From Streptococcus porcinus (GTDB taxonomy: Bacteria > Bacillota > Bacilli > Lactobacillales > Streptococcaceae): 64,000 nt of DNA. The stretch covers positions 186,001-250,000 of the forward strand of contig NZ_LR594036.1 in the NCBI RefSeq assembly GCF_901542335.1, written 5' to 3'. The number at the start of each line of letters is the position of its first letter. Position 1 is the stretch's first letter. This document shows, in pieces, positions 16,049 through 37,390 of this stretch. The notes below the pieces were generated by a model. That model did no database searches and had not been told where the DNA came from. It saw only the letters and a list, made by a program, of their open reading frames with translations. Made by a program: the position numbers and the translations under genes.

Positions 16049-16088
16049 TAGCAGAAATCACTAGCAAACTGGGGCAGATAAGAGGTTT

Positions 16089-16958: not shown

Positions 16959-17068
16959 GTTAAAAATAGATTGAAACTTGTTATTTTAGAAAAAAATATC
17001 AGAAAAATTCCTAAAGAGTTCTTACTGTTTTGTGACTCTGTTTTCGGAAAAATAGTTTAAATCAAATG

Positions 17069-17094
17069 GAGCGGCCTTAGAGTCGCTTTTTTCT
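17069..17094 (+). terminator. Possible terminator of the pilus operon
   Basis: Imperfect stem AGCGGC..GTCGCT followed by TTTTTTC, about 110 nt past the sortase stop. The stem is short with a mismatch. Confidence 0.35.
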
Positions 17095-17219
17095 TATGAG
17101 ATGAGGTCTCCTTGATTTAAAAAAATCCATATTTTTCAGACTATCTCAGAAAGTTCAGAAATTTGTGGTATACTAAATTTGAAAAAATCCATTTTTAAAA
17201 TGGTTAGAGGAGGTCAAAA

Positions 17220-19855: not shown

Positions 19856-19858
19856 GTA

Positions 19859-19990
19859 ATGTCAACGTTTATTATTACGGTTTTAATTGTAGGTGGAGTT
19901 ATTTGGGGTATTTATCATTACCTTAAGGGAGAAGGTTCTTGTGGAGATTGTGACTGTTCTTGTCCCGTTAAAGATGAGATGGAAAAATAA
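19859..19990 (+). CDS. FeoB-associated Cys-rich membrane peptide
   Basis: 43-residue ORF starting 4 nt after feoB: a single N-terminal hydrophobic helix (about residues 4-18), then a Cys cluster C28-x2-C31-x-C33-x-C35 and a charged tail. This is the pattern of the FeoB-associated Cys-rich membrane protein family found at the end of Firmicutes feo operons. It probably binds metal or assists FeoB in place of FeoC; the exact role is unproven. A weak GGAAAGGAATAG site overlaps the feoB end. Confidence 0.8.
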   Translation: MSTFIITVLIVGGVIWGIYHYLKGEGSCGDCDCSCPVKDEMEK

Positions 19991-20045
19991 TTAAAAGTAT
20001 TTTAGAAAAATTCTTTTCAGGAAGCTTATAGTGCTAAAACATAGG

Positions 20046-20077
20046 AAAAAGGTGAGCAGTCGATTGCTCACCTTTTT
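20046..20077. terminator. Bidirectional terminator between feo and mntH
   Basis: Stem AAAAAGGTGAGCA / TGCTCACCTTTTT with a 6-nt loop, flanked by A-run and T-run. It lies between convergent transcription units. Confidence 0.9.
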
Positions 20078-20166
20078 AGTGTAATGGTTGATAAGAAGTA
20101 AAGAAAGCATCTATTTGAAGCAATTTTATAGATGGAATAGCTTTTAGAATAATTATTAGTTTACTT

Positions 20167-21744: not shown

Positions 21745-21780
21745 AGCAGAGTAAACCTTCCTAAAAATAGCAAACCTAAC

Positions 21781-21806
21781 TAATAGATTAAGTAAACCTA
21801 ATTTTA
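21781..21806 (-). promoter_or_regulatory. Candidate MtsR/SloR-type metal-regulator box upstream of mntH
   Basis: On the minus strand this reads TAAAATTAGGTTTACTTAAT, close to the streptococcal DtxR-family consensus as I recall it (AAAATTAACTTGACTTAATT). It lies about 40-60 bp upstream of the mntH ATG. GGTTT-containing copies repeat nearby (21745-21780). The match is by eye. Confidence 0.45.
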
Positions 21807-21874
21807 CCTCAAAAATAAAAAATATTCAATATTTAATTTTTAGTCTTATCTATCTTGAGGATTTTAAAGAAACA

Positions 21875-21965
21875 AAAAAATAACCCTAAATTTGGACTGC
21901 ACCCCAATTGTTAGATTTTGTGTCTAACTTTTGGGATGCGGTTCATTCATTGTAGGGTTATTTTT
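21875..21965 (-). terminator. Terminator of the flavoprotein gene carrying an IS-end palindrome in its loop
   Basis: Outer arms AAAAATAACCCTA (21875-21888) and TAGGGTTATTTTT (21953-21965) form a terminator stem with U-tracts on both strands. The loop is filled by the 53-bp palindrome 21893-21945. It lies between the starts of mntH transcription and the end of the flavoprotein gene, 18 nt past the latter's stop. Confidence 0.7.
21893..21945. mobile_element. Miniature IS-end palindrome, copy 1
   Basis: Imperfect inverted repeat: TGGACTGCACCCCAATTG.. on the left and ..CTTTTGGGATGCGGTTCA on the right, with a short central AT loop. It has TG...CA outer ends as in IS3/IS150-group elements and no coding capacity. 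It is closely related to 49335-49386. Confidence 0.6.
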
Positions 21966-21983
21966 GGATAGTCATAAGTTTCT

Positions 21984-23306
21984 TTAAAAATTAAAGACAT
22001 CATTTAGATTTTCGGCCATTGTCGGATGTGTGAAGATTTGTTTTTGTAAGTAGGTATATGGAATCTTGTTATCGATGGCCATTTTAATGAGATTTATTAA
22101 TTCTGGAGACGCTGCGCTTAATAAGGTTGCACCTAATATAAGGTTTGAGTCTGCATCCACGACTACTTTAAAGAAGCCTCTTAAGTCACTATTAACATGA
22201 CCTCTCGGCATATTTGCGACCATTAAACTATTTGATTTATAATTCAGTCCTTGCTCTTTTGCCTGGGTTTCATCGATTCCAACTCGGGATAATGGAGGAT
22301 TTAAAAAGATGGTGTAAGGAATGTTTTGACGCTCCTTAGTTGAATAATCAGTACTCCCATTTAAATAATTCCACACAATTCGTGAATCATCTAAGGAAAC
22401 ATATGTAAATTGTAAGCCACCATTAACATCACCAACTGCGAAAACATTCGGGACAGAGGTTTGTAAGAATTCATCTACCTGAATTGCTCCACGCTCTGTT
22501 AATTTAATATCGGTATTTTCAAGTCCAAGACCTTCAGTGTTAGGTTTTCTACCTGTCGCATGGAGAACAGCATCGAACGTATAATCCCCATTTTCAGTTG
22601 TTATAATGACATTGTCACCATCATTTTTGACTTCAGAAATTTTTGATTGTAATTCAAATTGAACCCCGTTGTCCGCCATATACTCAGCTACTTTATTTGA
22701 AACAAACTCTTCTTCTCTACCTAAGATACGTACTTGTGGATCAAAAATTTGAACATGTGTTCCCATTTGGCTGAATAGGCTTGCAAACTCAAGTCCAATA
22801 TTTCCGGCTCCAATAATTCCTAATCGTTTAGGTTGAGTTTCAAGATTTTGGATACTTGTTGAGTCATAGACATAGTTTGATTCCGCTAATCCTTTAATTG
22901 GTAGACTATTTGGTACTGCTCCAGTATTAATAATGATAATTTCGGCAGTGAGTTCTTCAGCCTCGCCATTGGCTGAAGTGATTTTAATGACTTTGTTAGA
23001 AATAAATGTGGCATCAGCATTAAAAACATCAACTGTTTTGGCGTCATCAAGCATTTTAAAATTTTTAGCCCTTAAACGACTAACAACAGTATGTTTTTCA
23101 GTCATGGCTTCATCAAAACCATGACCAGTTTCAATAGAATGAATCAGCACTTTAGTAGGTATACATCCTATATTAATGCATGTACCTCCGTACATTGTTT
23201 CATCTTTTTCAATGATGGCCACTTTTTTACCATCAGCTCCAAACTTTGAAGCAAGGGTCTTACCAGCTTTACCAAAGCCAATAATGATTAAATCGTATGA
23301 TCTCAT
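21984..23306 (-). CDS. har: Pyridine nucleotide-disulfide oxidoreductase, hypothiocyanous acid reductase (Har)/RclA-like
   Basis: 440 residues. The N-terminal FAD motif is IIIGFGKAGKTLA, the redox-active disulfide is C43-x4-C48 (TCINIGCIP), the NAD(P) motif is LGIIGAGNIGLEFA (about 170), the FAD-binding VFAVGDV lies near 290, and the dimer-interface end is FTHPTMAEN. Layout and length match the RclA/Har subgroup, which in S. pneumoniae reduces hypothiocyanous acid and gives resistance to host lactoperoxidase products; mercuric reductase or lipoamide dehydrogenase is less likely. Monocistronic with GGAGGA site. Assignment to Har rather than a general flavoprotein disulfide reductase is from family memory. 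Confidence 0.82.
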   Translation of the reverse strand: MRSYDLIIIGFGKAGKTLASKFGADGKKVAIIEKDETMYGGTCINIGCIPTKVLIHSIETGHGFDEAMTEKHTVVSRLRAKNFKMLDDAKTVDVFNADATFISNKVIKITSANGEAEELTAEIIIINTGAVPNSLPIKGLAESNYVYDSTSIQNLETQPKRLGIIGAGNIGLEFASLFSQMGTHVQIFDPQVRILGREEEFVSNKVAEYMADNGVQFELQSKISEVKNDGDNVIITTENGDYTFDAVLHATGRKPNTEGLGLENTDIKLTERGAIQVDEFLQTSVPNVFAVGDVNGGLQFTYVSLDDSRIVWNYLNGSTDYSTKERQNIPYTIFLNPPLSRVGIDETQAKEQGLNYKSNSLMVANMPRGHVNSDLRGFFKVVVDADSNLILGATLLSAASPELINLIKMAIDNKIPYTYLQKQIFTHPTMAENLNDVFNF

Positions 23307-23536
23307 CAGTTGTCCTCCTAAGTATTAATTTTAGTTAAATTATAGCACGATAGTACTTAAGTGTCTTAATTCTGAAATGGTAGGCCCAAAGAATGATGAC
23401 GCTCCCGACTTTAATAAGTTAGGTATCAATTAGGGAGAGCTATAACCCTTTCGAAGAGGGGCCTCTATATTACCTTCTAAAAATAATTGATTTTATATTT
23501 TCCTAAGAATGACTTAAGAATTATTTTATATTTGGT

Positions 23537-23568
23537 TTAACTTTAGTTTAACACTGACTGTTATACTT
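23537..23568 (+). promoter_or_regulatory. Promoter with OmpR-type direct repeats before the secreted repeat protein
   Basis: Two TTTAAC hexamers spaced by 11 bp (23537-23542 and 23548-23553) sit 10 bp upstream of a TATACT -10 (23563-23568). Eleven-bp-spaced direct repeats replacing the -35 are typical sites for OmpR/PhoB-family activators. An OmpR-family regulator gene starts 750 bp downstream, but the true regulator is unknown. Confidence 0.45.
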
Positions 23569-23609
23569 AGTTCATAAAACAAATAACCCAAAAGAAAGAG
23601 GTAAATGAA

Positions 23610-24065
23610 ATGAAAAACAATAAGCAAACTATTCCAGCTATTGCTACTAACTATTTAAAAGCAGGACTTGTTTCAGCTCTGTTTGCGGGAGGAGTGTTTG
23701 TAGCCCTCGGATCAACTCCATCTGTTTCAGCTGCTAGCTATACTGGCAATAAAACGTCTGAAAAATTAACGGACACAGAACTTTACGAACGTGCAAAAAC
23801 ACTCAAGTTGCCAAAATATATTAGAGGTTCGCTTTACGGTAATCTTAACCATAATTCCAGTGTTACTTATCCAAAGGATGAGGATGGTATAGACGAACCA
23901 GAAGCACCAAAAGCGCCAAAAGAAACAAGACAATTAACGGACACAGAACTTTACGAACGTGCAAAAACCCTCAAGTTGCCAAAATACATCAGGGGTTCTC
24001 TCTATGGCATTCTTAACCAAAATTCCAGCGTTACATATCCAAAAGATGAGGATGGTTTAGAATAA
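23610..24065 (+). CDS. Small secreted protein with two near-identical 50-residue repeats
   Basis: 151 residues. A signal peptide (basic start, hydrophobic about 15-40, cleavage likely after VSA-AS) is followed by two copies of a Lys/Tyr-rich unit beginning LTDTELYERAKTLKLPKYIR and ending VTYPKDEDG, joined by a Pro/Ala linker (EAPKAPKETRQ). The repeats are about 90% identical in DNA, a recent duplication. There is no LPXTG or Cys, so it is probably released or cell-associated by charge. I do not recognise a function. The following two-component system and the promoter with OmpR-type repeats suggest regulated expression. Start ATG 23610 follows AAAGAGG. Confidence 0.82.
   Translation: MKNNKQTIPAIATNYLKAGLVSALFAGGVFVALGSTPSVSAASYTGNKTSEKLTDTELYERAKTLKLPKYIRGSLYGNLNHNSSVTYPKDEDGIDEPEAPKAPKETRQLTDTELYERAKTLKLPKYIRGSLYGILNQNSSVTYPKDEDGLE
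23763..24062 (+). repeat. Tandem coding repeat of about 125 bp (two copies)
   Basis: Copy A about 23766-23890 and copy B about 23935-24060 share long identical runs (for example the 32-nt stretch beginning TTAACGGACACAGAAC) and differ mostly at third codon positions. Confidence 0.85.
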
Positions 24066-24257
24066 AGAATAAGCTGAAGCATCTATGGGGAAGACCTAGT
24101 AGGTCATAAGTTCTAAAACCTTTATAAGTAAGATTCAAGAATTTATATTTGGAAAACGATTAAGTGCCAATGCTTGTGGTTAAAGAGTGATGTAACACTG
24201 AAAAGCATCATCATTAATGACTAAAAAACTTATTTAAAAGAGATATTTGGTTCAAAC

Positions 24258-24301
24258 AAAAGTTAGTGTTATACTGGAAAAAGTATAACACTAACTTTTT
24301 T
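24258..24301 (+). terminator. Strong terminator/attenuator hairpin directly before the Irr-like gene
   Basis: Perfect stem AAAAGTTAGTGTTATACT / AGTATAACACTAACTTTTT with a 6-nt loop and a T-run. It ends only 16 nt before ATG 24317 and abuts the AAGGAG ribosome-binding site. It should end the transcript of the secreted repeat gene and may gate read-through into the two-component genes. Confidence 0.8.
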
Positions 24302-24316
24302 AATCAAGGAGAATGT

Positions 24317-25003
24317 ATGACCTACAAAATTTTATTAGTGGACGATGAAGTATCAATCACTGATATTAATCAACGTTACTTACAACAAGCTGGCCATCTT
24401 GTCACTGTTGCAAGTGATGGCTCTCAAGCATTGGAGAAATTTCGTCAGAATCAGTATGATTTAATTATTAGCGATATTATGATGCCCAATATGGATGGTT
24501 ATGATTTTATTGGAGAAGTTCTGTTAGAAAAACCTAATCAACCCTTCCTATTTATTACAGCTAAAATTTCGGAGCCAGATAAAATTTATTCATTAAGTTT
24601 AGGGGCAGATGACTTCATTTCCAAACCTTTTAGTCCACGAGAACTAGTCCTGCGGGTCAAAAATATTCTTAATCGAATCTATGGAAAGGCTACTGAGTCT
24701 GAGTACTTGGTAATTGGAGATTTAAGCATAGATTATAATACTCGAGTAGTTAAGGTAGCAAATCAGAGCCTTAACCTGACCAACAAGGCTTTTGATTTAC
24801 TATGGATTTTAGCTAATCACTTAAATCATGTTTTTTCAAAAACAGAACTTTATGAGCGCGTGTGGGAAGAAGAGTACTTAGATGATACCAACACTTTGAA
24901 TGTACACATTCATTCTTTACGCAACGATTTGGCAAAATACAGTACTGATCAGCCACCAACTATTAAGACGGTTTGGGGATTAGGATACAAGTTAGAGGAA
25001 TAA
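24317..25003 (+). CDS. irr: OmpR-family response regulator (Irr-like)
   Basis: Receiver domain with acidic DDE, phospho-acceptor Asp in LIISDIMMPNMDGYD, and Lys in FISKPFSPRE, followed by a winged-helix domain ending KTVWGLGYKLEE. 228 residues from ATG 24317, chosen over an upstream frame because AAGGAG lies 8 nt before it. The kinase gene follows 1 nt after the stop. Sequence and kinase pairing resemble the Ihk/Irr system of S. pyogenes, which responds to neutrophil components, and in that species it also lies near speB. The name is from memory and should be treated as likely, not proven. Confidence 0.85.
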   Translation: MTYKILLVDDEVSITDINQRYLQQAGHLVTVASDGSQALEKFRQNQYDLIISDIMMPNMDGYDFIGEVLLEKPNQPFLFITAKISEPDKIYSLSLGADDFISKPFSPRELVLRVKNILNRIYGKATESEYLVIGDLSIDYNTRVVKVANQSLNLTNKAFDLLWILANHLNHVFSKTELYERVWEEEYLDDTNTLNVHIHSLRNDLAKYSTDQPPTIKTVWGLGYKLEE

Positions 25004-25004
25004 A

Positions 25005-26033
25005 ATGAAACTAAGAACATATATTGTTATCGGCTATTTAGTATCTATGTTGATTACTATTGCTGGATTAATCGTTGGTTTAAAGCAAATGTTTATCACA
25101 ACCAAGGATATTTCATATATCTTATTGATAGCACTAATAGCCTCTTTGGCGGGGGGGATAGTGAATATGTTGCTCTTGACCAATGTTTTTTCATCCTTAA
25201 AAAAACTAAAAGAAAAAATGCAAGCTATCTCTCAAAAAAATTTTAACCGTGACCATCTTATTAAATCTCCTTTGGAATTTAAAGATCTTGAAGGAACTTT
25301 TAATCAGATGTCATCAGAATTAGAAGCTAGCTTTGAATCACTGAATGAGAGTGAGCGAGAGAAATCCATGATGATTGCTCAATTATCCCATGATATTAAA
25401 ACACCGCTAACTTCAATTCAAGCAACTGTAGAAGGTATTCTAGACGGAGTTATTTCCAAAGAAGAGGAAAGAGCTTATTTGAATACTATTTCACGCCAAA
25501 CCAATCGTTTAAATCAATTAGTTGAAGAATTGCAAGTGGTCAGTTTAAATGACCAAAAACACGAAGTCAAACAAGCTTCCCAAGTTATTTACCTTGAAAA
25601 ATTACTCATTGAAATTTTGTCAGAGTTTCAATTAACTTTAGAGCGGGAAAATCGAACAGTCAACATTCAAGTGGCACCTGATGTTGTTAAAATAAAAAGC
25701 CAATATGACGCATTGTCTCGTATTATCTTAAACTTAGTTAGCAATGCTATTAAATATTCAGAAGTTAATACAGCTTTGACCATTCGGGCCTATCGACAAA
25801 GTCAAAAAATCCGAATTGACGTGATTGATCAAGGACAAGGTATAAAAGAAAAAGATATGTCCTTAATTTTTAAACGCCTATATCGTGTGGAGACATCTCG
25901 CAATATGAAAACCGGAGGACATGGACTAGGTCTCTATATTGCTAAGCAATTGGCCCATCAACTAGATGGAGATATTTCTGTTGAAAGTCAGCTTGGGAAG
26001 GGCAGTGCTTTCTCATTGTTCTTACCCGCCTAG
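25005..26033 (+). CDS. ihk: Sensor histidine kinase (Ihk-like)
   Basis: 342 residues with two N-terminal transmembrane helices (about 7-28 and 38-60) and almost no extracytoplasmic loop. A HAMP-like linker precedes the H-box QLSHDIKTPLTSIQ (His about 128), the N-box LNLVSNAIKYSEVN, and the G-boxes DQGQGIKEKD and TGGHGLGLYIAKQ. The short loop suggests sensing within the membrane. It lies 1 nt after the regulator gene and forms a two-gene operon with it. Confidence 0.88.
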   Translation: MKLRTYIVIGYLVSMLITIAGLIVGLKQMFITTKDISYILLIALIASLAGGIVNMLLLTNVFSSLKKLKEKMQAISQKNFNRDHLIKSPLEFKDLEGTFNQMSSELEASFESLNESEREKSMMIAQLSHDIKTPLTSIQATVEGILDGVISKEEERAYLNTISRQTNRLNQLVEELQVVSLNDQKHEVKQASQVIYLEKLLIEILSEFQLTLERENRTVNIQVAPDVVKIKSQYDALSRIILNLVSNAIKYSEVNTALTIRAYRQSQKIRIDVIDQGQGIKEKDMSLIFKRLYRVETSRNMKTGGHGLGLYIAKQLAHQLDGDISVESQLGKGSAFSLFLPA

Positions 26034-26279
26034 TTAAAGTGATGTTTTTTGACTTGGTTTTAAAGAAAAAGAAGTTAATATAGTCTGTCCTAGGAAATGA
26101 GATCTGGTCCTTGCTTACAAAATGAGTTGAGAAGTACCTCTTTGGAAGCTGCAAAGGGGGTACGCCTAAACAAAAACTGGAATTATTTATCATTTTTAAA
26201 AAAAATATAGGTTAAGAATAAAAGTTAAGTTATAATAATAAACAGAGAAAACATTACAAGTTTAAGGAGAACTTTTGAA

Positions 26280-27539
26280 TTGTCAATATCAGTAGTAAAT
26301 GTAGGAAAAGATAAGACGGACTTTGATTTATTTGTGGAACAACATCCTTATGGAAATCTTTTACAATCGAGCTCATGGGCACAGGTGAAGAATAATTGGC
26401 AGTCTTGTCAGCTTGCGTTTTATCAGGATCAAGAATTAGTAGCATGTGCTTCTATTTTGATAAAAAAGGTGATTAAAAATATTAAAGTTGCATACATACC
26501 AAGAGGTCCTATAGTTGATTATAAGAATCCGGAGCTTGTAAAGTCTGTTTTTAAAGCATTAAAAGAATATAGTCACAAAGAAAAGTTCCTCTTATTAAAA
26601 TGTGATCCTAATTTTCTATTTGACAGAGAAAATCTTAAGCAAACAGACTATTGTCAACAGATGATTGAAGAGATGGAAAAAATGGGTTATTCGTGGACTG
26701 GTTTGACTTTCAATTTGAGTGACACTATCCAACCTCGTTTTCAGGCTAATAAATATCTAAAACAGGATTCTTTCAACGATTATCAAAAGCATGTTAACCG
26801 CCTGACTAAGACGGCCACTAAAAAAGGTGTAGAAATTATTAAGGGCTCTGAAGACGAAGTTAGACTTTTTTCAGAACTTGTTGTTCGAACAGAACAAAGA
26901 AAAAATATCCATTTACGAAATTATGATTATTTTAAAAAGATAAAGGATACCTACAAGAACAAAGCAGAGTTTTACTTTGCTACAATTAACATTGATAAGC
27001 AATTGGCAAAACAAAAGGAACGCTTGTTGCAATTAGAGAATGATTTAGCAGAAACACCAGGACATCAAAAAAATCGCTTGAAAGAACTTAAGCAACAAAA
27101 AGCTTCGGTACTTAAACAAGTTGATGAATTGACAGCTCTGGCCGAAAATAATCCTAGTCAATTAGTTGTTGCAGGTGTGTTAGGAATACGCTTTGCTACG
27201 GGGATAGAGTTACTCTATGCGAGTATGGATGAACGATTTAAACACTATTATCCTCAATACCTTCTAGATACGGAAATTTTCAAGAGATGTCACCAAGAAG
27301 GTCTAAGTTGGGCAAATATGGGTGGTGTGGAAGGAAACCTTGAAGGTGGTTTATCTGTTTTCAAGTTATCATTTAAACCAACTATTGAGGAATATATTGG
27401 AGAGTTTAATTTATCACCTAATCAGCAACTCTATCGATTAGGTAAAGATGCCTACAGGATTTACAAAAAAATAGCTAAAACTATAACGGTTAAAGCATCA
27501 AAAAAATTATCACTAAAAAAAGATCAAGGTAAACATTAA
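26280..27539 (+). CDS. FemX/FemAB-type peptidoglycan branching aminoacyltransferase (MurM/MurN-like)
   Basis: 419 residues, the usual FemABX length. Two GNAT-like subdomains are visible (about 1-160 with NLLQSSSWAQVKNNW and AYIPRGPIVDY; about 160-240 and 290-400 with GGVEGNLEGGLSVFKLSF), with a coiled-coil arm (about 238-288) between. It adds amino acids from aminoacyl-tRNA to the lipid II stem Lys to form the peptidoglycan cross-bridge. The TTG start at 26280 follows AAGGAG. It stands alone; the amino acid added cannot be told from sequence. Confidence 0.88.
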   Translation: MSISVVNVGKDKTDFDLFVEQHPYGNLLQSSSWAQVKNNWQSCQLAFYQDQELVACASILIKKVIKNIKVAYIPRGPIVDYKNPELVKSVFKALKEYSHKEKFLLLKCDPNFLFDRENLKQTDYCQQMIEEMEKMGYSWTGLTFNLSDTIQPRFQANKYLKQDSFNDYQKHVNRLTKTATKKGVEIIKGSEDEVRLFSELVVRTEQRKNIHLRNYDYFKKIKDTYKNKAEFYFATINIDKQLAKQKERLLQLENDLAETPGHQKNRLKELKQQKASVLKQVDELTALAENNPSQLVVAGVLGIRFATGIELLYASMDERFKHYYPQYLLDTEIFKRCHQEGLSWANMGGVEGNLEGGLSVFKLSFKPTIEEYIGEFNLSPNQQLYRLGKDAYRIYKKIAKTITVKASKKLSLKKDQGKH

Positions 27540-27627
27540 AAATCTGAATAGCAGCCTAGCTTTATCGAAAATAGGTAAAAAGTACTATTAACGGCAAAAA
27601 AATGTACCTTCTATTATAAAGAACGCT

Positions 27628-27664
27628 AAAAGAACCGAGCTCTCTATAGAGAACTCGGTTCTTT
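27628..27664. terminator. Bidirectional terminator between the Fem-type gene and spi
   Basis: Stem AAAAGAACCGAG / CTCGGTTCTTT with an inner CTCTATAGAG palindrome. Convergent genes lie on both sides. The rest of 27540-27857 holds no supported gene. Confidence 0.85.
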
Positions 27665-27857
27665 GTTTGGCAATAGCCTGGAGGCAATATTGAGAAAGTT
27701 ATAACGACTTACTCAACTTGTGACTATTTTGATTTTAGCAGTTGTCTCCGCAGTGATAGTAATCAGTTGGGTCAGTGTAATACATCGAAAATAGCGATTT
27801 TTAGGATTTGGCTTCAAATGATGGTTAAACGATAGTTAGTACTAGACAATAAACGTC

Positions 27858-28163
27858 TTAATCCAGAGATTTAATTTGTTCTTGATAAGCTTCTATCATG
27901 CTCCATACATTTTTTTGGTTGATGTCAAGTTCGTTGTCAAAAGAATACCCTAAAATTGTATGTGCTCTTGTATCTCCGGATACGAGAATAAAGCCTGTTG
28001 GAAAGAGAGAATAGATGTATACTTCACTACTTGTATGATTACTATCCAAAGGATAAATTAACTGCTGTATGCGCACGTTACCTTTATGTTGTGTATGTTC
28101 TTGACAGAATATCTCAGCCTCGTGACGCGCTTGCGCTTCTGTTCTAACAAAATCAATGCCCAT
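27858..28163 (-). CDS. spi: Spi, propeptide-like inhibitor of SpeB
   Basis: 101 residues, without a signal peptide, starting at ATG 28163 one nt after the speB stop. A longer upstream frame would overlap speB and is less likely. It resembles the SpeB propeptide itself: EAEIFCQEH, VYIYSLFPTGFILVSGDTRA and ILGYSFDNELD align with [30 protein letters not shown] and [11 protein letters not shown] in SpeB. In S. pyogenes, Spi is a cytoplasmic inhibitor that protects the cell from prematurely active protease. Translation is probably coupled to speB, since no separate ribosome-binding site is seen. No prsA gene follows. Confidence 0.9.
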   Translation of the reverse strand: MGIDFVRTEAQARHEAEIFCQEHTQHKGNVRIQQLIYPLDSNHTSSEVYIYSLFPTGFILVSGDTRAHTILGYSFDNELDINQKNVWSMIEAYQEQIKSLD

Positions 28164-28164
28164 A

Positions 28165-29358
28165 CTAAGGTTTGATTCCGACAACAGCGCTTTGATAGTG
28201 ATTAAAGCCACCAGAGCCTCCACCAGTACCAAGAGAAGAAGGGTTTAGAGCATCTAATCTGAAGAAACCATCAGCGACTCCGCCCCAGCCCCAGTTAACA
28301 TGGTAGAAGTCATTTCCGTCAGAACCATCGATAACGAATGCATGGCCACCTAAGTCACCAACACCTTGGTAGTATACTGGTTGGTTTTGAGTCAATTCGT
28401 TATCAATTTGTGTTTCCCAATCTTCTTTACTGTAACTATCGCGTGAAATTTGGTGAACAGATTGAGCGTAGCCGAAGTTTTCTTTCAAGGCTTTTTGTAC
28501 GAGAGGACTACCTGCTGAACCACTGGATGGGCCGTAGTCCATTCTTACTGTAATACCAACGTCAGACATTAGTTGTGCAACAGCTGTTTTTTGAACATCA
28601 GATTCGTTTCCATTGTAAGAAGGTAAAATGTTATTCCAGTTGTACACTCTAGTAGAAATAGGTGCAGTTAATGTTATAGGGCTCTTAAAGTATTTATTAC
28701 TAAAGGTATAAGTGAAGTCTTTTAATCCTTTATTAGGGTAATTATGATATTTCATAATTTGAGCAGTTGCAGTAGCAACACATCCAGTTGCTGCATCTTG
28801 TCCTATATATTTTTCTTCTCCAGGTCCTGCTTGTTCTATAATAGGTGTTAACAGATTGTAAGGGTAACCTTGGTTATAGTGAATACCTTTAGCATCTAGT
28901 AGAGAGTTAACTACTGGTTGTTTAATATTAGTAGTATCTGTGTATGGGGTATCTATTTTTTTATTTTCTGTAATTTGTTTGGCATAGCTTTCAATAAAGG
29001 AAGCAATATTTTCCTTACCACTGGCATCGAATGAACCTTTTGTAGAATAGCCTAAAATCTCTGGAGAACGTTTATCTGCAGAAACAATAACGAAACCACC
29101 GGTAGAAATATTGTAGACATACATGTTAGAGTCGGAAAGTTTATCCCCTAATGTTACTTTGTCCAATTTAATGTTTTGGGCATCTCCCCCAGCTTTAGCT
29201 TTGATAGAGTCATTTTTTTCAATAAATGTGATAGCTGAATTTTTGGCTTCTTGTTCGTTACGACCAAAGTTTTCAGAAGCAAAAACTGGATTAGAAAGGA
29301 TAAATCCACTTAACGTTAAAATACTTAATAGCTTAATACCTAATTTCTTTTTATTCAT
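28165..29358 (-). CDS. speB: Streptopain-family cysteine protease (SpeB)
   Basis: 397-residue zymogen of family C10: signal peptide (about 1-27, ending VFA-SE), propeptide to about K146, then the mature protease. Catalytic Cys193 lies in [11 protein letters not shown] and His339 in [10 protein letters not shown], with the Trp motif HVNWGWGG and the glycine-rich C-terminal loop GTGGGSGG. The propeptide-mature junction (NIK-QPVV) matches the S. pyogenes one. It is secreted and self-activated, degrading host and bacterial surface proteins. The sequence is clearly homologous to but diverged from S. pyogenes SpeB. Regulated by the adjacent RopB and the SIP peptide encoded in its long leader region; forms an operon with spi. 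Confidence 0.95.
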
Positions 29359-29380
29359 GATTAATACCTCCGTAAAATAA

Positions 29381-29996
29381 ATGAGTCTAATAAGTTCATT
29401 TCTAACAGTACATTGGACACACCTCCAAACTTAAAATGAGGCCGTCTAATATTTTCGTCTCTAGCTGAAAATATCTTTTGGCTTATAAATGAAAGCACTA
29501 TTAACAATGATGGTTTCTCCTTACTATTTAGGGGTTCTTGAATACCTCAGTGTCACTCTACTGGTGATTGGCAAGTTACACAGGGCTGAATAATAAGAAA
29601 GTGAGTAAATAGTTTTTTTTTAAGAATCACCCTTTTCAAGGCTTGTTTTATTGCTAACATAATTTGGCATGGAATAAATCTATAACTCCTTGAAAGGGAA
29701 AGTTTTTGAAACTATGGCTTAGAGATTAGGTAACCGGTTTCGTAACTACATCTTAACCTTCTGAAGATGAACTTCTTTTTATTATTATCAATAGTTAAAA
29801 AACTTAACTTTTTAGTAGTTTTCTCATTCCATCAACTAGAAATCGCAACGTTTTAATGCTGATTTCGGACAATAATGACCTCTTATAGTTGACAAGGAGG
29901 TTGAAAATACTGATAATAATAAGTAAGCCAATTAATATATCAGTCAATGCTTTTAGTTGATTCTTTACTCTTAACCACCATCATTTTCCACTGTAC
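29381..29996 (-). promoter_or_regulatory. Long leader region of speB
   Basis: About 615 bp between the sip stop and the speB ribosome-binding site (GGAGG at about 29370). No other ORF with a good start site was seen. A hairpin is predicted between ACCCTTTTCAAGG (29628-29642) and CCTTGAAAGG (29688-29697), and a shorter one around 29448-29475. An unusually long 5' leader is also known for S. pyogenes speB. Confidence 0.5.
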
Positions 29997-30023
29997 CTAT
30001 AGAAATAGCAATAACAACCACAT
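29997..30023 (-). CDS. sip: SIP pheromone (SpeB-inducing peptide), MWLLLLFL
   Basis: Nine-codon minus-strand ORF: ATG TGG TTG TTA TTG CTA TTT CTA TAG, giving the leaderless octapeptide MWLLLLFL. It is preceded by a strong Shine-Dalgarno AAAGGAGG 8 nt before the ATG. The peptide equals the S. pyogenes SIP as I remember it, which is exported, re-imported and bound by RopB to activate speB at high density. Its position, between ropB and speB and in the speB direction, is the same as in S. pyogenes. About 124 bp separates it from the divergent ropB start and should hold its promoter. Far too short for ordinary gene finding. Confidence 0.93.
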   Translation of the reverse strand: MWLLLLFL

Positions 30024-30081
30024 AACACGTACCTCCTTTTAAATTCCTTTTGGCTATATATTAAAACAGAATGGGATTGAA

Positions 30082-30110
30082 TAGACAATTTGTTGCGCAT
30101 TATGTACAAT
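30082..30110 (+). promoter_or_regulatory. Candidate ropB promoter
   Basis: TAGACA (30082-30087), 17-bp spacer, TACAAT (30105-30110), about 38 bp before the ropB ATG. The same 124-bp segment must hold the oppositely directed sip/speB promoter (a TTGTCT-like -35 on the minus strand overlaps here). Confidence 0.4.
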
Positions 30111-30147
30111 AGTAACGTATTTTTGACATAAATTAAGGAGGCTTAAA

Positions 30148-30996
30148 ATGGAACTTGGCGAAACTGTCGAATTTATTAGGCATTCGAAAAATATTCCCAT
30201 TAAACAAGTTTGCGGTGATTACTTAACTAGACAGACTTATCACCGCTTTATAAAGAATAATCTTGACATTTCTTCTACAAAGCTACTTTATATCTTAGAT
30301 AATCTAAACGTAAATGTTGATGAATTTCTCTTTATTAGTAATAACTTTAAAAGATATCAAGAATTTATCGACATGGATACGGCTAAACATTACTTTGAAA
30401 ACCAAGATACAACAGGACTACATCAGATTCTAACTTCATATAAAGATAGTAAGTCGACAAAAGAAAAGAACCTCTTTGCTTTAGTAAAGGTTTTATTAGC
30501 TATGTTAACTAATGAAGATTGCCTTAAAGAGCGACTTTACCTATCAAACTATCTTGTTAATATTGAAACCTGGAGTCACTATGAAACGGTACTGTTTAAT
30601 AACTGTATGTTTATTTTTGATTCTAACTTCATCGAAATTATTTTTTCAAAAGTTATCCTAAACCTTGATAAGTACAATACACTTAGGTGCTATGGAAATG
30701 AATCTATTAGAATGTTCGTTAATATGCTTATCTTATTCATTCAAAGGCAAGAGTACCAAAAAGCTGCCGAAATTCTAGCGCAGATTAAAAATTATAGCCT
30801 AAATGAAGATTGCTTATATGAGAGGTGTTGTATCACCTTTTTTGAAGGTATCATTGATATCATACATGGCAAAGAAGGAGCCGAGCGAAAATGCGAAAAA
30901 ATATTACAAGTTTTTGAACTATTGAATTGTAAAACAATCCATAAAATGTTTAAGGCATATTTAAAAGATATAAAAAATAAAGTTAAATATGCTTAA
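30148..30996 (+). CDS. ropB: RopB (Rgg-family), peptide-responsive activator of speB
   Basis: 282 residues: an N-terminal helix-turn-helix (about 5-60, VEFIRHSKNIPIKQVCGDYL) and C-terminal TPR-like repeats that bind peptide. Residues reported for S. pyogenes RopB, as I recall them, are present at the same numbers: N152, N192, C222, Y224 and R226 for SIP binding, and H144, Y176, Y182 and E185 for pH sensing. It is divergent from sip-speB-spi, with AAGGAGG 4 nt before ATG. It should be a cytosolic SIP receptor that binds the shared promoter region and activates speB. Confidence 0.93.
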   Translation: MELGETVEFIRHSKNIPIKQVCGDYLTRQTYHRFIKNNLDISSTKLLYILDNLNVNVDEFLFISNNFKRYQEFIDMDTAKHYFENQDTTGLHQILTSYKDSKSTKEKNLFALVKVLLAMLTNEDCLKERLYLSNYLVNIETWSHYETVLFNNCMFIFDSNFIEIIFSKVILNLDKYNTLRCYGNESIRMFVNMLILFIQRQEYQKAAEILAQIKNYSLNEDCLYERCCITFFEGIIDIIHGKEGAERKCEKILQVFELLNCKTIHKMFKAYLKDIKNKVKYA

Positions 30997-31157
30997 ATAT
31001 CGATTTAAACACTAAAAGATAAAGCATTCTTTTATAGAAAATACAAGCCACCTTTTTAACAAGTTATCAGCCACTATTAAATTGTTAGTATGTTTCAGAG
31101 TAGCTCAACTTGGAGTTGCTAAAGCATTTTATAGTTTTGGAAGAGACATCAAGATAC

Positions 31158-31184
31158 AAAAAAGCCTTTATAAAAGGCTTTTTT
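31158..31184 (+). terminator. Terminator downstream of ropB
   Basis: Stem AAAAAAGCC / GGCTTTTTT with a T-run, about 160 nt past the ropB stop. The rest of 30997-31287 holds nothing recognisable. Confidence 0.8.
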
Positions 31185-31287
31185 GCATGACTTGGTAAAC
31201 TAAACTGATTTAGTGAAGGTGACTATTAAAATTCAAGGAAATTATGAATATTATGAAGAAGTTTTTTAATTAAATCATTATAAAATG

Positions 31288-31349
31288 TTGACAATTAGAT
31301 TAATTAGCGTTAATATTAACTGGTTAACAACCGGTTAATAACTAGTTAA
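31288..31349 (+). promoter_or_regulatory. lmb promoter with three AdcR-type zinc-repressor boxes
   Basis: Consensus promoter TTGACA (31288-31293), 17-bp spacer, TAATAT (31311-31316). Three palindromes follow at 11-bp spacing: a perfect TTAACTGGTTAA (31316-31327), AACCGGTTAA (31329-31338) and TAACTAGTTA (31339-31348). These match the streptococcal AdcR consensus TTAACYRGTTAA, and their overlap with -10 and the start point implies zinc-dependent repression. Confidence 0.85.
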
Positions 31350-31369
31350 AAATTTTATGAAGGAGTCTT

Positions 31370-32290
31370 ATGAAAAAAATATTTTTGACTTTTTTTCTGT
31401 TAGTTATTTTGTTTGCAACTTCTGCTTGTCAGAAGGCAGTAAAGCCTAGTTCTAGTCAGCATGGACTATCTATTGTGACAAGTTTCTACCCGATATATGC
31501 TATGACAAAAGAGGTTTCAGGTGACTTAAATGATGTGAGGATGATTCAGTCTGGTGCTGGGATTCATTCCTTTGAACCCTCAGCTAATGATGTAGCAGCT
31601 ATATACGATGCAGATTTATTTATTTATCATTCACATACTTTGGAATCTTGGGCAGATGATCTGGATTTTAATCTGAAGAAAACGAAAGCTACTGCGTTTG
31701 AAGCTTCAAAATCATTAACTTTAGATAGAGTTAATGGATTAGAGGATGTTGAAGTCAAAGAGGGAATTGACCCAGCAACCTTATATGACCCTCATACTTG
31801 GACAGACCCTGTTTTAGCTGGAGAAGAAGCACTGAATATTGGAAAAAAATTGAGTCAAATAGATCCGGATAATTCAGAATACTATACTAAAAATGCTAAG
31901 TCATTTAAGCAGAAAGCAGATCAATTAGCTGAGGAGTATCATAAGAAATTCAAATCAGTAAAGGCTAAGAATTTTGTAACTCAGCATACAGCCTTCTCTT
32001 ATTTAGCAAAACGTTTTGGATTAAAACAATTAGGCATTTCAGGGATTTCCCCAGATCAAGAGCCATCACCACGTCAACTAACTGAGATTCAAGCATTTAT
32101 TAAAGAGTATAAGGTGAAGACTATTTTTGCTGAGGACAATGTTAGTCCGAAGATTGCTCATACTATTGCTAAAGCAACTAAAGCTAAAGTTAAAACTTTG
32201 AGTCCGTTGGAGTCTGCACCACGTGGTGATAAATCGTATCTAGAAAATCTTAGGAAAAATATGGAAGTTCTTTATCAAAATTTAAAATAA
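31370..32290 (+). CDS. lmb: Zinc-binding laminin-binding lipoprotein Lmb/Lsp (AdcAII)
   Basis: 306 residues. The lipoprotein signal with lipobox TSAC-Q (Cys about 19) is followed by a cluster A-I/ZnuA-type solute-binding protein. Zinc ligands expected for the family are visible: His in GIHSFEPS, His in DPHTWTDP, His in TQHTAFSYL and the acidic FAEDNVS. It captures zinc outside the membrane for an ABC importer encoded elsewhere, and homologues are laminin adhesins. It is the first gene of a bicistron with the histidine-triad gene 13 nt downstream, behind a triple AdcR box. Confidence 0.95.
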   Translation: MKKIFLTFFLLVILFATSACQKAVKPSSSQHGLSIVTSFYPIYAMTKEVSGDLNDVRMIQSGAGIHSFEPSANDVAAIYDADLFIYHSHTLESWADDLDFNLKKTKATAFEASKSLTLDRVNGLEDVEVKEGIDPATLYDPHTWTDPVLAGEEALNIGKKLSQIDPDNSEYYTKNAKSFKQKADQLAEEYHKKFKSVKAKNFVTQHTAFSYLAKRFGLKQLGISGISPDQEPSPRQLTEIQAFIKEYKVKTIFAEDNVSPKIAHTIAKATKAKVKTLSPLESAPRGDKSYLENLRKNMEVLYQNLK

Positions 32291-32303
32291 AAGGAGATAG
32301 GAT

Positions 32304-34886
32304 TTGAAAAAGAAATATATCTACACTAGTTCAGCAGTTGCTATTTTACTAGCTAGCCATATAGGGCTTTATCAATTAGGTAAGCTTCAGGCTGATACAA
32401 ACCATAAGGATAACAAAATTGCATATGTCAATGATATCAAAAAAAGCACGCAAGCGTCTAAAAAAGATAAAACCATGGATCAGATTAGCGCTGAAGAAGG
32501 TATCACTGCAGAACAAATAGTAGTTAAAATTACCGACCAAGGCTATGTTACATCACACGGAGATCATTTCCACTTTTACAATGGTAAAGTGCCTTATGAT
32601 GCGATTCTTAGTGAAGAATTAGTAATGACTGACCCTAATTATCAGTTTAAACAATCTGACGTTGTTAATGAAGTTTTGGACGGCTATATTATTAAAGTAG
32701 ATGGGAAATACTACGTTTATCTCAAGCCAGGAAGTAAGCGTAAAAATATTCGTAGTAAACAGGAAATAGCTGAGCAGGCTGCCAAAGGAACAAAGGAAGC
32801 AAAAGAAAAGGGTCTAGCTAAGGTATCTCATCTTAGTAAAGCAGAAGTTGTAGCGGTTAATAAAGCTAAAAGCCAAGGGCGTTACACAACTGATGATGGT
32901 TATATCTTTAGTCCAACTGATGTGATTGATGATTTTGGTGATGCCTATTTAGTTCCGCATGGCAACCATTTCCATTATATTCCCAAAAAAGATTTATCTC
33001 CAAGTGAATTAGCAGCCGCTCAGGCCTACTGGAATCAGAAAAACGGTAGAGGCTCGCATCAGACTGATTACCAGCCATTCCCGTTCCCAAATCCAGCTCC
33101 TCATAGAGGCTCAACTTGGCATAACTCTCCAAATCATGGTCCTCATAACGGTAATCATGGCTCCTCTTCACATAGACCAAATGGAAACTCGTCTTCTGAT
33201 AAACACAATAATAAAGATTTTGAGGGCAAATCATTTAAAGAGCTTTTAGATTTATTGCATAGTATGGATTTAAAAGATCGTCATGTTGAATCAGATGGAC
33301 TGATATTTGAACCAACACAAGTAGTAAGAGCTAATGATTTTGGTTATGTTATTCCTCACGGGGATCACTATCATATTATTCCTCGTAATCAATTGTCAGC
33401 TTTGGAAATCTTGTTAGCTGACCGCTATTTAGCAGGACAAACGCACGACACTCCAAAACCACATCAACCAGATAAAGATAAAACTAAAAAAGTTATTCAT
33501 ACATTTTTAGGACCTTCTATTATAGCTTACGGTAAAGGGCTTGATGGTAAGCCTTATGACACTAGTGATAACTATGTCTTTAGTAAGAACTCTATTTATT
33601 CTGTTGATAAATCCGGAGTAACTGCTAAACACGGTTCTCATTTTCACTATGTGGGATTTGGTGAATTAGAACAAAATGAACTGGATCAAGTTGCAGAATG
33701 GTTGAAAGCCAAGGGTCAAGATAAGGAATTAGCAAAAGCTTTGGGGCAATCAGAAGGAGAAGAGAAGTTCCCGTTTGATGCTAAAAAAGTCAGTCTTAAA
33801 GTAGTTAATAATGGTAAAGTTGGTTATATGATGACTAAAGATGGTAGAGACTATTTTTATGATCGTGAACATCTTGATTTAACACAGATTGCTTTTGCAG
33901 AGCAAGAACTGATGCTCAAAGATAAAAATAACTATAAATATGATATTAAAAATGATGGTATTGAGCCAGCACTACTGGTAAATCTTGATAGTTTACCAAT
34001 GCATGTTGGTAATGCCTCTTATGATACAGGAACTGAATTTATTATTCCTCATATTGACCATATCCACGTGGTTAGGTATAGTAATTTATCAAAAGAACAG
34101 ATTGCTACAATCAAGTATTTAATGAGTCATCCAGAAGTTCGACCAGAACCATGGACTCAGCCACATGGTAAAGGGGAGAAGAAAACACATACAGAACAAC
34201 CTAAGTATATTGTTAATGTCACACCAGTGGAAAAACGTCAAGGTCTGCCAAACTGGATGGTTATCCATTCAGTAGAAGAAGTTCAACAAGCACTTAAAGA
34301 AGGCCGCTACGCTACGACGGATGGTTACATTTTCAATCCTCACGATATCCTTGATCCAAAGACATTTGTTTGGAGAGATGGCTCCTTCAGTATTCCTAGA
34401 GCAGAAGGTGGCTCTTTAAGGGCTATCAGGAAAAATGACCTATCTGAGTCTGAGTGGCAAAAAGCTCAAGAATTCGTTGCTCAGAGAAGAGCTTCAGATG
34501 CTGCACGTGAGAAAAAAACAGATAAGAAATCACCGGTTGAAAAATCACCCGAAAAATCATCTGAAAAACCAGTTGCTCCAAGCGTGAATCCGGCCCCTAA
34601 CGAAGATAAAAGTAATGAAGTAAGGACGACCGTTCCATTGCCAAAAGAGGAAGAGAGGAATCTTCCGGAAGCGAGCAAACCAGAGAAGGTCCAACCTTCA
34701 GAAAGTAATAGTTCAACCAATTATGGGTTGGATAGTGGCACCCTGCAAACTCGTATCGCACAAATAGCCCAAAAAGAAGGAGTTGATCCTAAACAGATGA
34801 CTCTCCTACCAACTGGTGTTCAATTTACTGATAAAACTGGTCATCTCGTTCTATATGATATTAAAACCCTACAAAAAATCGGTTAA
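32304..34886 (+). CDS. htpA: Histidine-triad surface protein (HtpA/PhtD-like)
   Basis: 860 residues with an N-terminal signal or anchor segment. Five HxxHxH zinc-binding triads are visible: HGDHFHFY (~87), HGNHFHYI (~220), HGDHYHII (~350), HGSHFHYV (~446) and HIDHIHVV (~592). A His/Pro/Asn-rich linker lies at about 255-310, and the tail rich in Lys/Pro/Glu from about 730 ends in a short domain. No LPXTG. These proteins hand zinc to Lmb/AdcAII and bind complement factors in relatives. TTG start 32304 follows AAAGGAGATA. Same operon as lmb and probably under the same AdcR control. Confidence 0.92.
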   Translation: MKKKYIYTSSAVAILLASHIGLYQLGKLQADTNHKDNKIAYVNDIKKSTQASKKDKTMDQISAEEGITAEQIVVKITDQGYVTSHGDHFHFYNGKVPYDAILSEELVMTDPNYQFKQSDVVNEVLDGYIIKVDGKYYVYLKPGSKRKNIRSKQEIAEQAAKGTKEAKEKGLAKVSHLSKAEVVAVNKAKSQGRYTTDDGYIFSPTDVIDDFGDAYLVPHGNHFHYIPKKDLSPSELAAAQAYWNQKNGRGSHQTDYQPFPFPNPAPHRGSTWHNSPNHGPHNGNHGSSSHRPNGNSSSDKHNNKDFEGKSFKELLDLLHSMDLKDRHVESDGLIFEPTQVVRANDFGYVIPHGDHYHIIPRNQLSALEILLADRYLAGQTHDTPKPHQPDKDKTKKVIHTFLGPSIIAYGKGLDGKPYDTSDNYVFSKNSIYSVDKSGVTAKHGSHFHYVGFGELEQNELDQVAEWLKAKGQDKELAKALGQSEGEEKFPFDAKKVSLKVVNNGKVGYMMTKDGRDYFYDREHLDLTQIAFAEQELMLKDKNNYKYDIKNDGIEPALLVNLDSLPMHVGNASYDTGTEFIIPHIDHIHVVRYSNLSKEQIATIKYLMSHPEVRPEPWTQPHGKGEKKTHTEQPKYIVNVTPVEKRQGLPNWMVIHSVEEVQQALKEGRYATTDGYIFNPHDILDPKTFVWRDGSFSIPRAEGGSLRAIRKNDLSESEWQKAQEFVAQRRASDAAREKKTDKKSPVEKSPEKSSEKPVAPSVNPAPNEDKSNEVRTTVPLPKEEERNLPEASKPEKVQPSESNSSTNYGLDSGTLQTRIAQIAQKEGVDPKQMTLLPTGVQFTDKTGHLVLYDIKTLQKIG

Positions 34887-35058
34887 TCTGGCTATTTTTG
34901 AAAGAAGGTGACCTGATAAAAGAGATTATGTTAAAAAGCTTTTTCAAGTTGCTAGGACAAATAAGTCAAAAAATGGATACTATACCTATGAGAAAATAAA
35001 TAATAGTTTATATTTAATAATGCAGTGTATAACTTTCGACATAAGGCTATGGCATCAT

Positions 35059-35091
35059 AAAAGCAGGAATTAATTTTGAATTCCTGCTTTT
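35059..35091 (+). terminator. Terminator of the lmb-htpA operon
   Basis: Perfect stem AAAAGCAGGAATT / AATTCCTGCTTTT, about 175 nt past the htpA stop. Confidence 0.8.
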
Positions 35092-35235
35092 GTTATAAAG
35101 TATTTCAAAAAATATCAGTAACCAGATGTATGAGCTAACTTAGGAGTTATCTAGTTCAGTAGTGTTTTATTACCTGTTCAGAACGCACATTAATTCTAGT
35201 TAGTGTGATAAAATGAAACCAGGAGAATAAGCCAT

Positions 35236-35349
35236 ATGAGAAGTGAACAAGTGATAATTAATTTAATACGGAGCATAGCTCAATTGGATGATAGAATTGA
35301 GGTAGATAAAATAGCTAGCAAAACCAACTCAACTAGAAAAGCAATATAA
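35236..35349 (+). pseudogene. Possible N-terminal relic of an aminoglycoside 6-adenylyltransferase-like gene
   Basis: The 37-codon ORF begins MRSEQVIINLIRSIAQLDDR, resembling the conserved start (MRSExxxxxLxxxxAxxDxRI) of ANT(6)/AadE-type nucleotidyltransferases. It has a GGAGAA site upstream and then diverges and stops. No catalytic GSR motif remains. It could be chance resemblance over about 20 residues. Confidence 0.4.
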
Positions 35350-35451
35350 GGCTTAACCATGGTAACTATCAGTCAGCGATGATTCTTATGAAAAGTTATC
35401 AAAAACTAGTTAAAGAAAAGCCTTTTAATATTTTTTGATAAAAGGAGTTCT

Positions 35452-35752
35452 ATGACCACACCATTATATTTTATCCGCCATGCTGAACCGAATTATGGTA
35501 ACCATAATGATCGACTAAGAAAATTGAGTGATAGAGGGGTAAAACTTTAGTGGACAAATTCTCTGCAATTTCGATTAATCAATTCTATGGTAGTCCTTTG
35601 TCATTGGTACAAACGGCACTGCACTTTCAACAATTTATAAACCAGAGTTTAGTTTTATAGCATTTGATGCCATCAAGCATCTATTTCCGGGGATAGTTAA
35701 GCTTGAATTTAATGGCATAGAGCTAGAGAAAATAAGCACTGTAGGCGAATAG
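35452..35752 (+). pseudogene. Decayed histidine phosphatase (phosphoglycerate mutase-like)
   Basis: ATG 35452, after AAAGGAG, opens with the catalytic RHG-type motif LYFIRHAEPNYGNHNDRLRK and LSDRG, then stops at 35548-35550. A following frame holds FYGSPLSLVQTAL, which fits the FYSSPxxRxxxTA motif of the family, and another carries a C-terminal-like FDAIKHLFPGIVKLEFNGIELEKI. Most of the central domain is missing. Multiple lesions, so non-functional. Confidence 0.7.
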
Positions 35753-35804
35753 GTCTAAAAAATATCCAGCATATTGGAAATTAAGAACTAAATAAGCTCA
35801 ATGT

Positions 35805-35838
35805 AAAAAGTCGCTTAGGTTTATTTCTAAGCGACTTT
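35805..35838 (-). terminator. Terminator of the nuclease gene
   Basis: Stem AAAGTCGCTTAG / CTAAGCGACTTTTT, read on the minus strand 9 nt after the stop codon. Confidence 0.85.
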
Positions 35839-35846
35839 CTGTTGGG

Positions 35847-36605
35847 TTAGTTTTTAGGAGTTGCAGTACCAGTCAAGTAATCAAGATTAACGTTAGGAGC
35901 AGAATTTTCTAAAACTACTGTTATAACACCATTTTCATCGATACGTTCTTTATCGCTGTTTAATCTTATAGGTAGTAACTTACCAGATGCATCAATACCA
36001 ACATATTGCAATTCGATTTGACGAGGAAGGAGTTCATTACCTTGATATATTGGGGTTACTTTATAGTCTAACCAAAAATCAGGATGCAATGCAAGCCAAG
36101 AGTCTAAACGATTTTCGTAGTATAGCATACCATCAGGATTACTGTCATTTGTTCCTGTATAAGCTCCAGTATTTAGCCAAGCAGTCATGGTTACTAGGTT
36201 TCTGGGCTCATCATTTAAGCCACAGAATTGATAGCCAACTAAATGACCACGATTCATTACCCATGCTTTTTTTGTGCCATCTCCATATGGGAATTGATAA
36301 TTATGCCACCCTACAGGGTCATAATTTATTTTAGTACGTTTATCTTTGGTTTCATGTCTATCTTGAAGTTGTATATGCGAAGAAGTAGCGCGGTGGAGGT
36401 TATCTAATTCGTTAAGCTGTAGTTGATACTGACCTGTAAATGGAAGTATTTTGTTCGATATAGGACTCGGAGAATGCGAGTTTGCATGCGCGACATTTGG
36501 ATAGGTCAGTATTCTATCGGCGTCAACGCTTGTCGTCGTTATAGAAAGGGAAAGTAATAATAAAACAACAGTAAGCAAACTTGTCTTTTGTTTAGATAAT
36601 TTCAT
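35847..36605 (-). CDS. Secreted DNA/RNA non-specific endonuclease (streptodornase-like DNase)
   Basis: 252 residues: signal peptide (about 1-29, cleavage near VDA-DR), then a beta-beta-alpha metal nuclease. The catalytic motif reads MNRGHLVGYQ (His about 120), a DRGH-type site, followed by MTAWLNTGAYTGTN and MLYYENRLDSWL (Asn/Glu positions that hold the metal water). Homologous to streptococcal extracellular DNases, which degrade neutrophil traps. No anchor, so released. Single gene; neighbours are relics and the LRR protein. It is distinct from the S. pyogenes DNase B/SpeF that usually lies beside ropB. Confidence 0.9.
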   Translation of the reverse strand: MKLSKQKTSLLTVVLLLLSLSITTTSVDADRILTYPNVAHANSHSPSPISNKILPFTGQYQLQLNELDNLHRATSSHIQLQDRHETKDKRTKINYDPVGWHNYQFPYGDGTKKAWVMNRGHLVGYQFCGLNDEPRNLVTMTAWLNTGAYTGTNDSNPDGMLYYENRLDSWLALHPDFWLDYKVTPIYQGNELLPRQIELQYVGIDASGKLLPIRLNSDKERIDENGVITVVLENSAPNVNLDYLTGTATPKN

Positions 36606-36998
36606 GATAACACCTAAACCTTTCCGATTTTAGCTTTTAGAGTGGATCAATTATTGCACTTTACTAGTTAAGTATACCACTTTTAATTAAAAAAACATGA
36701 TATTAATAAAATTAATTTAACACAAATGTTGCTCTAAATGTTCTTTTATTTTAATTTTTCGCTCCAAAAAACGCTTCCATATAACATATTTTTATAATAA
36801 TCTCTTTTTTTAATAAATTTTTCCGTCATCAATGAAGAAATTTTCGGAAACAAATCGTCATACTCCACTTACTATAATTTTTCTTGCTTTTTCCATCTGC
36901 TTTAGTAAAGAGTTTAATATAGGTTGATAAAATTAAGTGAAGTTAATTTTTATATTACACAATACAAAATAAAATAATTCGAAACGTCGAAATTTTTC
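36606..36998. other. Intergenic AT-rich region
   Basis: About 390 bp upstream of both the nuclease (minus) and the LRR gene (plus). No supported ORF or RNA. The nuclease promoter must lie here. Confidence 0.4.
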
Positions 36999-37052
36999 TT
37001 GAAACCTTAAAAACTTTGTGTTACTATACTTACTAAGCGGAACCTTAGTAAG
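36999..37052 (+). promoter_or_regulatory. Promoter with a palindrome at the start site, upstream of the LRR gene
   Basis: TTGAAA (36999-37004), 17-bp spacer, TACTAT (37022-37027), directly followed by the perfect palindrome CTTACTAAG-6 nt-CTTAGTAAG (37029-37052). The palindrome spans the expected start point: an operator or a 5'-end RNA hairpin. The leader to ATG 37391 would be about 355 nt. Confidence 0.45.
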
Positions 37053-37390
37053 TTCCACTCGATTCAAGAAAGTTATGTTTAACTTTATAAAACAGTGGTG
37101 GTGAAGTAGGAGATGACTTCTCCCCAGAAAACAGAAGAGATTACCAGAAATATCCCAATTGTGGTCGGATTTTTGATAAATCACTGTCCCTATTGGGAGG
37201 CTTTTTTGGTGCTCGAAATCGTGTCATTTTCTTATAGATTAAAAAAGAAACTAAGTTGCATGATTGATGATGAAGGGAAAGATGCTATGGAATCAAGCAC
37301 AAAAAAGTATCAGTCTGGAATAGTTTAAGGATGCTATTATCAGTCAATTAATGAGTGGAAAAAATTGGCTTTTAGAAAGGTTTTACCACA

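Follow-up and report, generated by a model that had tools for sequence, protein, structure and literature searches.

Does the eight-codon open reading frame that lies between ropB and speB in Streptococcus porcinus encode a working pheromone of the kind known from S. pyogenes, where SIP, the SpeB-inducing peptide, is a secreted signal (PMC6565748)? We examined it in a 64,000-nucleotide stretch of the S. porcinus genome, hereafter the window, and in related genomes. That S. porcinus has a SIP-type peptide is already known. Aggarwal et al. (2023, PMC10518010) described an S. porcinus leaderless communication peptide (LCP) identical to SIP between divergent ropB and speB, reported that the synthetic LCP induced speB early while a scrambled peptide had no effect, and named S. 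pseudoporcinus among the species with an LCP system; a 2026 review lists MWLLLLFL for RopBsp of S. porcinus (PMC13361665). The initial annotation, which took a sip gene outside S. pyogenes as a surprise, thus over-read its novelty, since peptide, layout and speB induction were all in print in 2023. The window matches the published RopBsp-LCPsp-speBsp system in peptide, divergent ropB and downstream speB, and differs from it in strain.

An intact sip gene between divergent ropB and speB

The sip gene occupies 29997..30023 on the minus strand (ATGTGGTTGTTATTGCTATTTCTATAG). Its codons, read from 30023 to 29997, are ATG TGG TTG TTA TTG CTA TTT CTA TAG, eight codons and a stop with the product MWLLLLFL, and its assignment draws on the sequence, on its uniqueness and on a pattern search of the genus. 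A Shine-Dalgarno sequence, AAAAGGAGG, read directly from the DNA, lies at 30032..30040 (minus), 8 nt before the ATG, and is present with variation across six aligned speB-type loci. Upstream, an in-frame TAA occurs at six codons with no start codon between, so the ATG is the only possible start of sip; a GTG start in a different frame was read by eye ahead of the gene. The 27-mer is the sole exact copy in the whole genome. Our re-reading agreed to the base with the coordinates, strand, sequence and ribosome-binding site initially annotated, and the accompanying claim that an intact sip here encodes the S. pyogenes SIP was likewise borne out by the peptide tabulated in the review (PMC13361665).

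SIP-type LCP systems are characterized by an ultrasmall ORF (about 8-10 aa, hydrophobic, leaderless, with a strong ribosome-binding site) and an adjacent RopB-clan Rgg receptor gene that is usually divergent, and both are present at this locus. ropB, encoding an Rgg-family receptor and regulator of 282 aa (Pfam Rgg_C), runs on the plus strand at 30148..30996, divergent from sip, and 124 nt separate the two starts. On the strand of sip, 638 nt downstream, begins a speB homologue of 397 aa (28165..29358, minus; Pfam Peptidase_C10 and Inhibitor_I69), a C10 cysteine protease with propeptide and the presumed target gene. Its end is overlapped by spi (27858..28232, minus; 124 aa, TTG start; Pfam Inhibitor_I69), which encodes a SpeB-propeptide-like inhibitor. 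No RopB match was found in plasmid records at E<=1e-40, and no Rfam match at the gathering score in window 20000-40000.

For comparison with S. pyogenes we used genome G211, whose RopB is identical over residues 56-280 to the solved chain 5dl2. We take 5dl2 to be the S. pyogenes protein, and G211 is treated as S. pyogenes because of this match. RopB of the window is 82% identical to that of G211, and SpeB 74% identical over 286 aligned positions (residues 1-284, where the fetched G211 locus ends). The earlier statement that SpeB has diverged from S. pyogenes therefore holds. The ropB-sip start spacing also differs, 124 nt in the window versus 268 nt in G211. Close to the window is genome G033, with identities of 99% for RopB, 92% for SpeB and 97% for Spi, and its DNA is 95% identical over the 16-kb window stretch 8000-24000. 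S. pseudoporcinus (G210) has a RopB 90% identical to that of the window, and its DNA is 80% identical over the main 13.9-kb match within that stretch. These identities put the window in the porcinus group.

Distribution of the octapeptide in the genus

We searched 284 genomes of the genus with a degenerate pattern for MWLLLLFL plus stop. It matched in eight, at a single place each, and the reversed control gave no match among those listed. In all eight, a RopB-clan gene lies divergent from the ORF, 110-268 nt away. A reverse search, started from RopB-clan genes at E<=1e-45 in the same 284 genomes and so avoiding the bias of a peptide-first search, returned nine: the same eight with MWLLLLFL, and S. 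halichoeri (G100) with MWLLLMFL. A looser sip pattern, run on seven genomes (G307, G308 and G309 repeat G210, G100 and G086 and were counted once), matched a single place in 7/7, while its reversed control matched once, in G211. G210 is taken as S. pseudoporcinus and G100 as S. halichoeri in part from the position of sip, which agrees with that in the genomes of the named loci L039 (G307) and L040. By base composition, the window should hold about 1e-6 sip-like ORFs and the whole genome about 4e-5.

The S. halichoeri peptide (L051 / L057) is a natural SIP variant, altered only at a position reported to be tolerant in S. pyogenes, and SpeB is listed for this species (PMC7049441). Among named records, the RopB search returned S. 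pseudoporcinus, S. halichoeri, S. didelphis and a Lactiplantibacillus plantarum strain (41% RopB); S. pyogenes and S. porcinus were not among the matches of that search, which may omit near records. A peptide of S. didelphis or S. halichoeri was not found in the literature listings searched; the figures and supplements of PMC10518010 may give them.

The peptide is held constant while its codons change

Nine sip ORFs have eight distinct DNA spellings, and all encode one peptide but for one residue. Over four tree shapes, we counted 18-19 codon changes (stop codons included) and a single amino-acid change; the receptor tree has two weakly supported branches (0.42, 0.64). The chance of so few amino-acid changes is 1.5e-12 to 5.1e-8 under a simple binomial, which is not a codon model. 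By codon position, the changes across the nine genomes number 6, 0 and 13.

Among the six speB-type loci, sip has 15 changes in its 27 bases, four at codon positions 1-2 and 11 at position 3. It is this placement, not the total, that sets sip apart from its neighbours. Even by placement, one overlapping in-frame stretch has an equal score, and stretches about 220 nt upstream, over ropB, score nearly as high; G211 aligns poorly there because its spacer is longer. The sole replacement among the nine ORFs is L6M. In S. pyogenes, RopB is not contacted directly by the side chain of L6, and changing this residue to alanine weakened binding about 2.7-fold (PMC6565748). Selection on the pheromone, which the initial annotation had proposed, is supported by the synonymous bias of these changes.

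The RopB pocket and pH switch are conserved

We examined 15 RopB residues (H144, N152, F155, Y176, Y182, E185, R188, V191, N192, I195, Q199, M267, F268, Y271 and K278) that Do et al. (2019, PMC6565748) assign to the SIP pocket or to the pH switch at His144. All 15 agree between RopB of the window and that of G211, as does H12, and the window receptor thus has both the pocket and the switch residues (H144, Y176, Y182, E185) of a SIP-type system. At a C-terminal domain identity of 178/225, the chance of 15/15 identity is about 0.03, modestly above background. The more distant receptors of G109, G283 and G274 (51-54% to the window) keep 12 of the 15, with the exceptions V191I, Q199D and K278N, and RopB of S. 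didelphis has G278 at that pocket position.

Given the exact gene, the divergent RopB-clan genes, the synonymous changes and the matching pocket, we conclude that this locus is very probably a functional-looking SIP-type LCP gene of a porcinus-group Streptococcus, feeding RopB, the sip promoter and speB.

Promoter and operator-like sequences

By eye, a TATATA hexamer resembling the -10 element of a presumed sip promoter was picked out at 30055..30060 (minus); a sigma-70 scan found no promoter-like site at this position. Upstream of it, on the side where SIP-type LCP systems carry a RopB operator, lies an operator-like site, ATACGTTAC-N4-GTACATAATGCGCAAC (30092..30120, minus), a presumed RopB site recognized through alignment of the loci and a genome pattern search. 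Its position and outer sequence are conserved among the speB-type loci. The pattern ATACGTTAC-N4-RTACMTAATRCGYAAC occurs ahead of sip in six of nine genomes, the speB-type ones, and is absent at up to 2 mismatches from the three others. Since it was built from these loci, its matches ahead of sip are by construction, and the informative part is the lack of a second match anywhere in the window's genome (G000), whether of the pattern at up to 2 mismatches or of a shorter core at up to 3. G211 (L059) has two copies ahead of sip, where the five remaining speB-type genomes have a single one each. Compared by eye with the half site of GAS given in PMC10518010, GTTACGTNT, each arm of the window site departs at 2 of 8 specified bases.

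The scan of 29300-30250 gave three matches, two on the plus strand and one on the minus, versus 3.9 expected, no more than chance would give. One lies at 29889-29917 (plus); another, at 30082-30110 (plus), shares bases with the operator-like site and may be the promoter of ropB; and a weak one between sip and speB, at 29943-29916 (minus), would allow speB a promoter separate from that of sip. No terminator-like site was found in the same interval, and because only 0.3 are expected there by chance, this is weak evidence for read-through from sip into speB.

Weighing other explanations

An ORF this short could have arisen by chance, or could be untranslated sequence kept merely because it belongs to the promoter region or the 5' leader, and there is something to be said for such a reading: promoter and leader elements are packed around sip, and its 15 changes in six loci are inside the range of 12-41 for neighbouring 27-base tiles. 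Yet mere position would not account for the 6, 0 and 13 changes by codon position or for eight spellings that preserve one peptide but for one residue, and the synthetic peptide is reported to be active in S. porcinus (PMC10518010), so we consider this explanation highly improbable. A translated leader that tunes speB in cis, rather than a secreted signal, would fit a gene that precedes speB by 638 nt on one strand and the weak evidence from the lack of a terminator-like site between 29300 and 30250. Against this, peptide added from outside is active in S. porcinus (PMC10518010), a relative differing by one residue is active in S. pyogenes (PMC10847043), and the RopB pocket is conserved; the cis-acting leader is barely more credible than the untranslated sequence.

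The identity of the peptide to the S. pyogenes SIP might also point to recent horizontal gain of the locus from that species, which we judge very unlikely. RopB and the compared part of SpeB are only 82% and 74% identical to G211, sip is spelled unlike that of G211, and RopB diverges from G033 (99%) and S. pseudoporcinus (90%) in step with the neighbouring DNA (95% and 80%). A SIP-type signal, presumably secreted, is the most probable explanation of the locus.

A proposed circuit

The gene, its divergent layout, the constraint on its peptide, the conserved pocket and the operator-like site belong to this genome, and its circuit would probably run as follows. The octapeptide would be made directly, with neither leader nor processing, then exported and re-imported. 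At high density and low pH, it would bind the C-terminal pocket of RopB, acid pH favouring the binding through His144. RopB with its peptide would bind the operator and lift a promoter that has no recognisable -35, and activation of the sip promoter would create positive feedback. The raised sip transcription would carry into speB, most likely by read-through.

This circuit resembles RopB-SIP-SpeB of S. pyogenes (PMC6565748) in octapeptide, layout, pocket residues, pH-switch histidine and operator-like site. It differs in its diverged RopB (82%) and SpeB (74%, part), and in having one operator-like site where G211 has two.

The same peptide in other settings

MWLLLLFL also stands beside receptors about 51-54% identical to the window's RopB, in G274 (L055:13068-13737), G109 (L053) and G283 (L054). 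In G274, only 7 nt separate the sip stop from the start of a radical-SAM ORF of 211 aa; further on come an ABC ATPase ORF and a membrane ORF (below the Pfam cut-off). G109 has such an ABC ATPase ORF and no radical-SAM ORF, and the ORF list of G283 gives the same arrangement. No speB match at E<=1e-3 was found in the 14-17 kb stretches of these three genomes.

Two more known systems are close to that of the window. NrpR-NIP / LCPss of S. salivarius (PMC10847043, PMC10518010) likewise has a leaderless octapeptide, a RopB-like receptor and crosstalk with SIP; it differs in its peptide, MWLILLFL, and in driving an antibiotic gene cluster, not speB. For LCP/RopB Sthermo_2 of S. thermophilus (PMC12445099), MWLLLLFL is listed, with printed counts of 10 versus 13 for the cluster, whereas its RopB is 54% identical to the bait and the text consulted gives it no link to speB.

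In S. pseudoporcinus, a second operator-like match with 1 mismatch occurs at C1:1722450-1722478 (L058:3700-4870). A ropB fragment there aligns to residues 3-60, with 54/58 identical, and is cut after the DNA-binding part; the ORF after the operator-like site reads MRLLLLGFVW, no longer the SIP octapeptide. To judge by its sequence, this second locus is a decayed ropB-sip remnant, a single case of a peptide that decayed beside a truncated receptor.

Other features of the window

Two further features lie some kilobases from sip. Between two genes, at 21880-21960, stands a strong hairpin whose fold spans 81 nt (z about -9.3). Each of the five relatives searched carries about 46 nt of this sequence at another 2-6 places. 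It may be an IS end or a small MITE, which it resembles. The ORF list also holds a small secreted-looking ORF of 151 aa at 23610-24065, in which a unit of roughly 40 residues (TELYERAKTLKLPKYIRGSLYG...) is present twice in tandem, almost unchanged.

Meaning for signalling among streptococci

The initial annotation also raised a cross-species signal. As an idea it stands, having been demonstrated in 2024 for a related pair: NIP of S. salivarius, one residue off SIP, switches on speB in S. pyogenes, and the S. salivarius cluster responds to added SIP. When the two were co-cultured, though, LCP signalling went one way only, from S. salivarius to S. pyogenes (PMC10847043). It is possible, if somewhat short of probable, that the same octapeptide, unchanged, is a word common to streptococci with receptors as little as about 51% identical and with different genes alongside (a protease in one group, radical-SAM and ABC-transporter genes in the other). 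Species that bear speB and those of the other group would then hear each other; the six speB-type loci seen vary only at L6, which RopB barely reads.

Our analysis confirms independently, from genomes, that species keep the SIP word unchanged even as their receptors and proteases diverge. It adds two natural tests: a variant at the single position reported as tolerant, and a copy that has decayed next to a truncated receptor. Signalling across species is a sensible idea, and one already demonstrated for a related pair, where it ran in one direction in co-culture.
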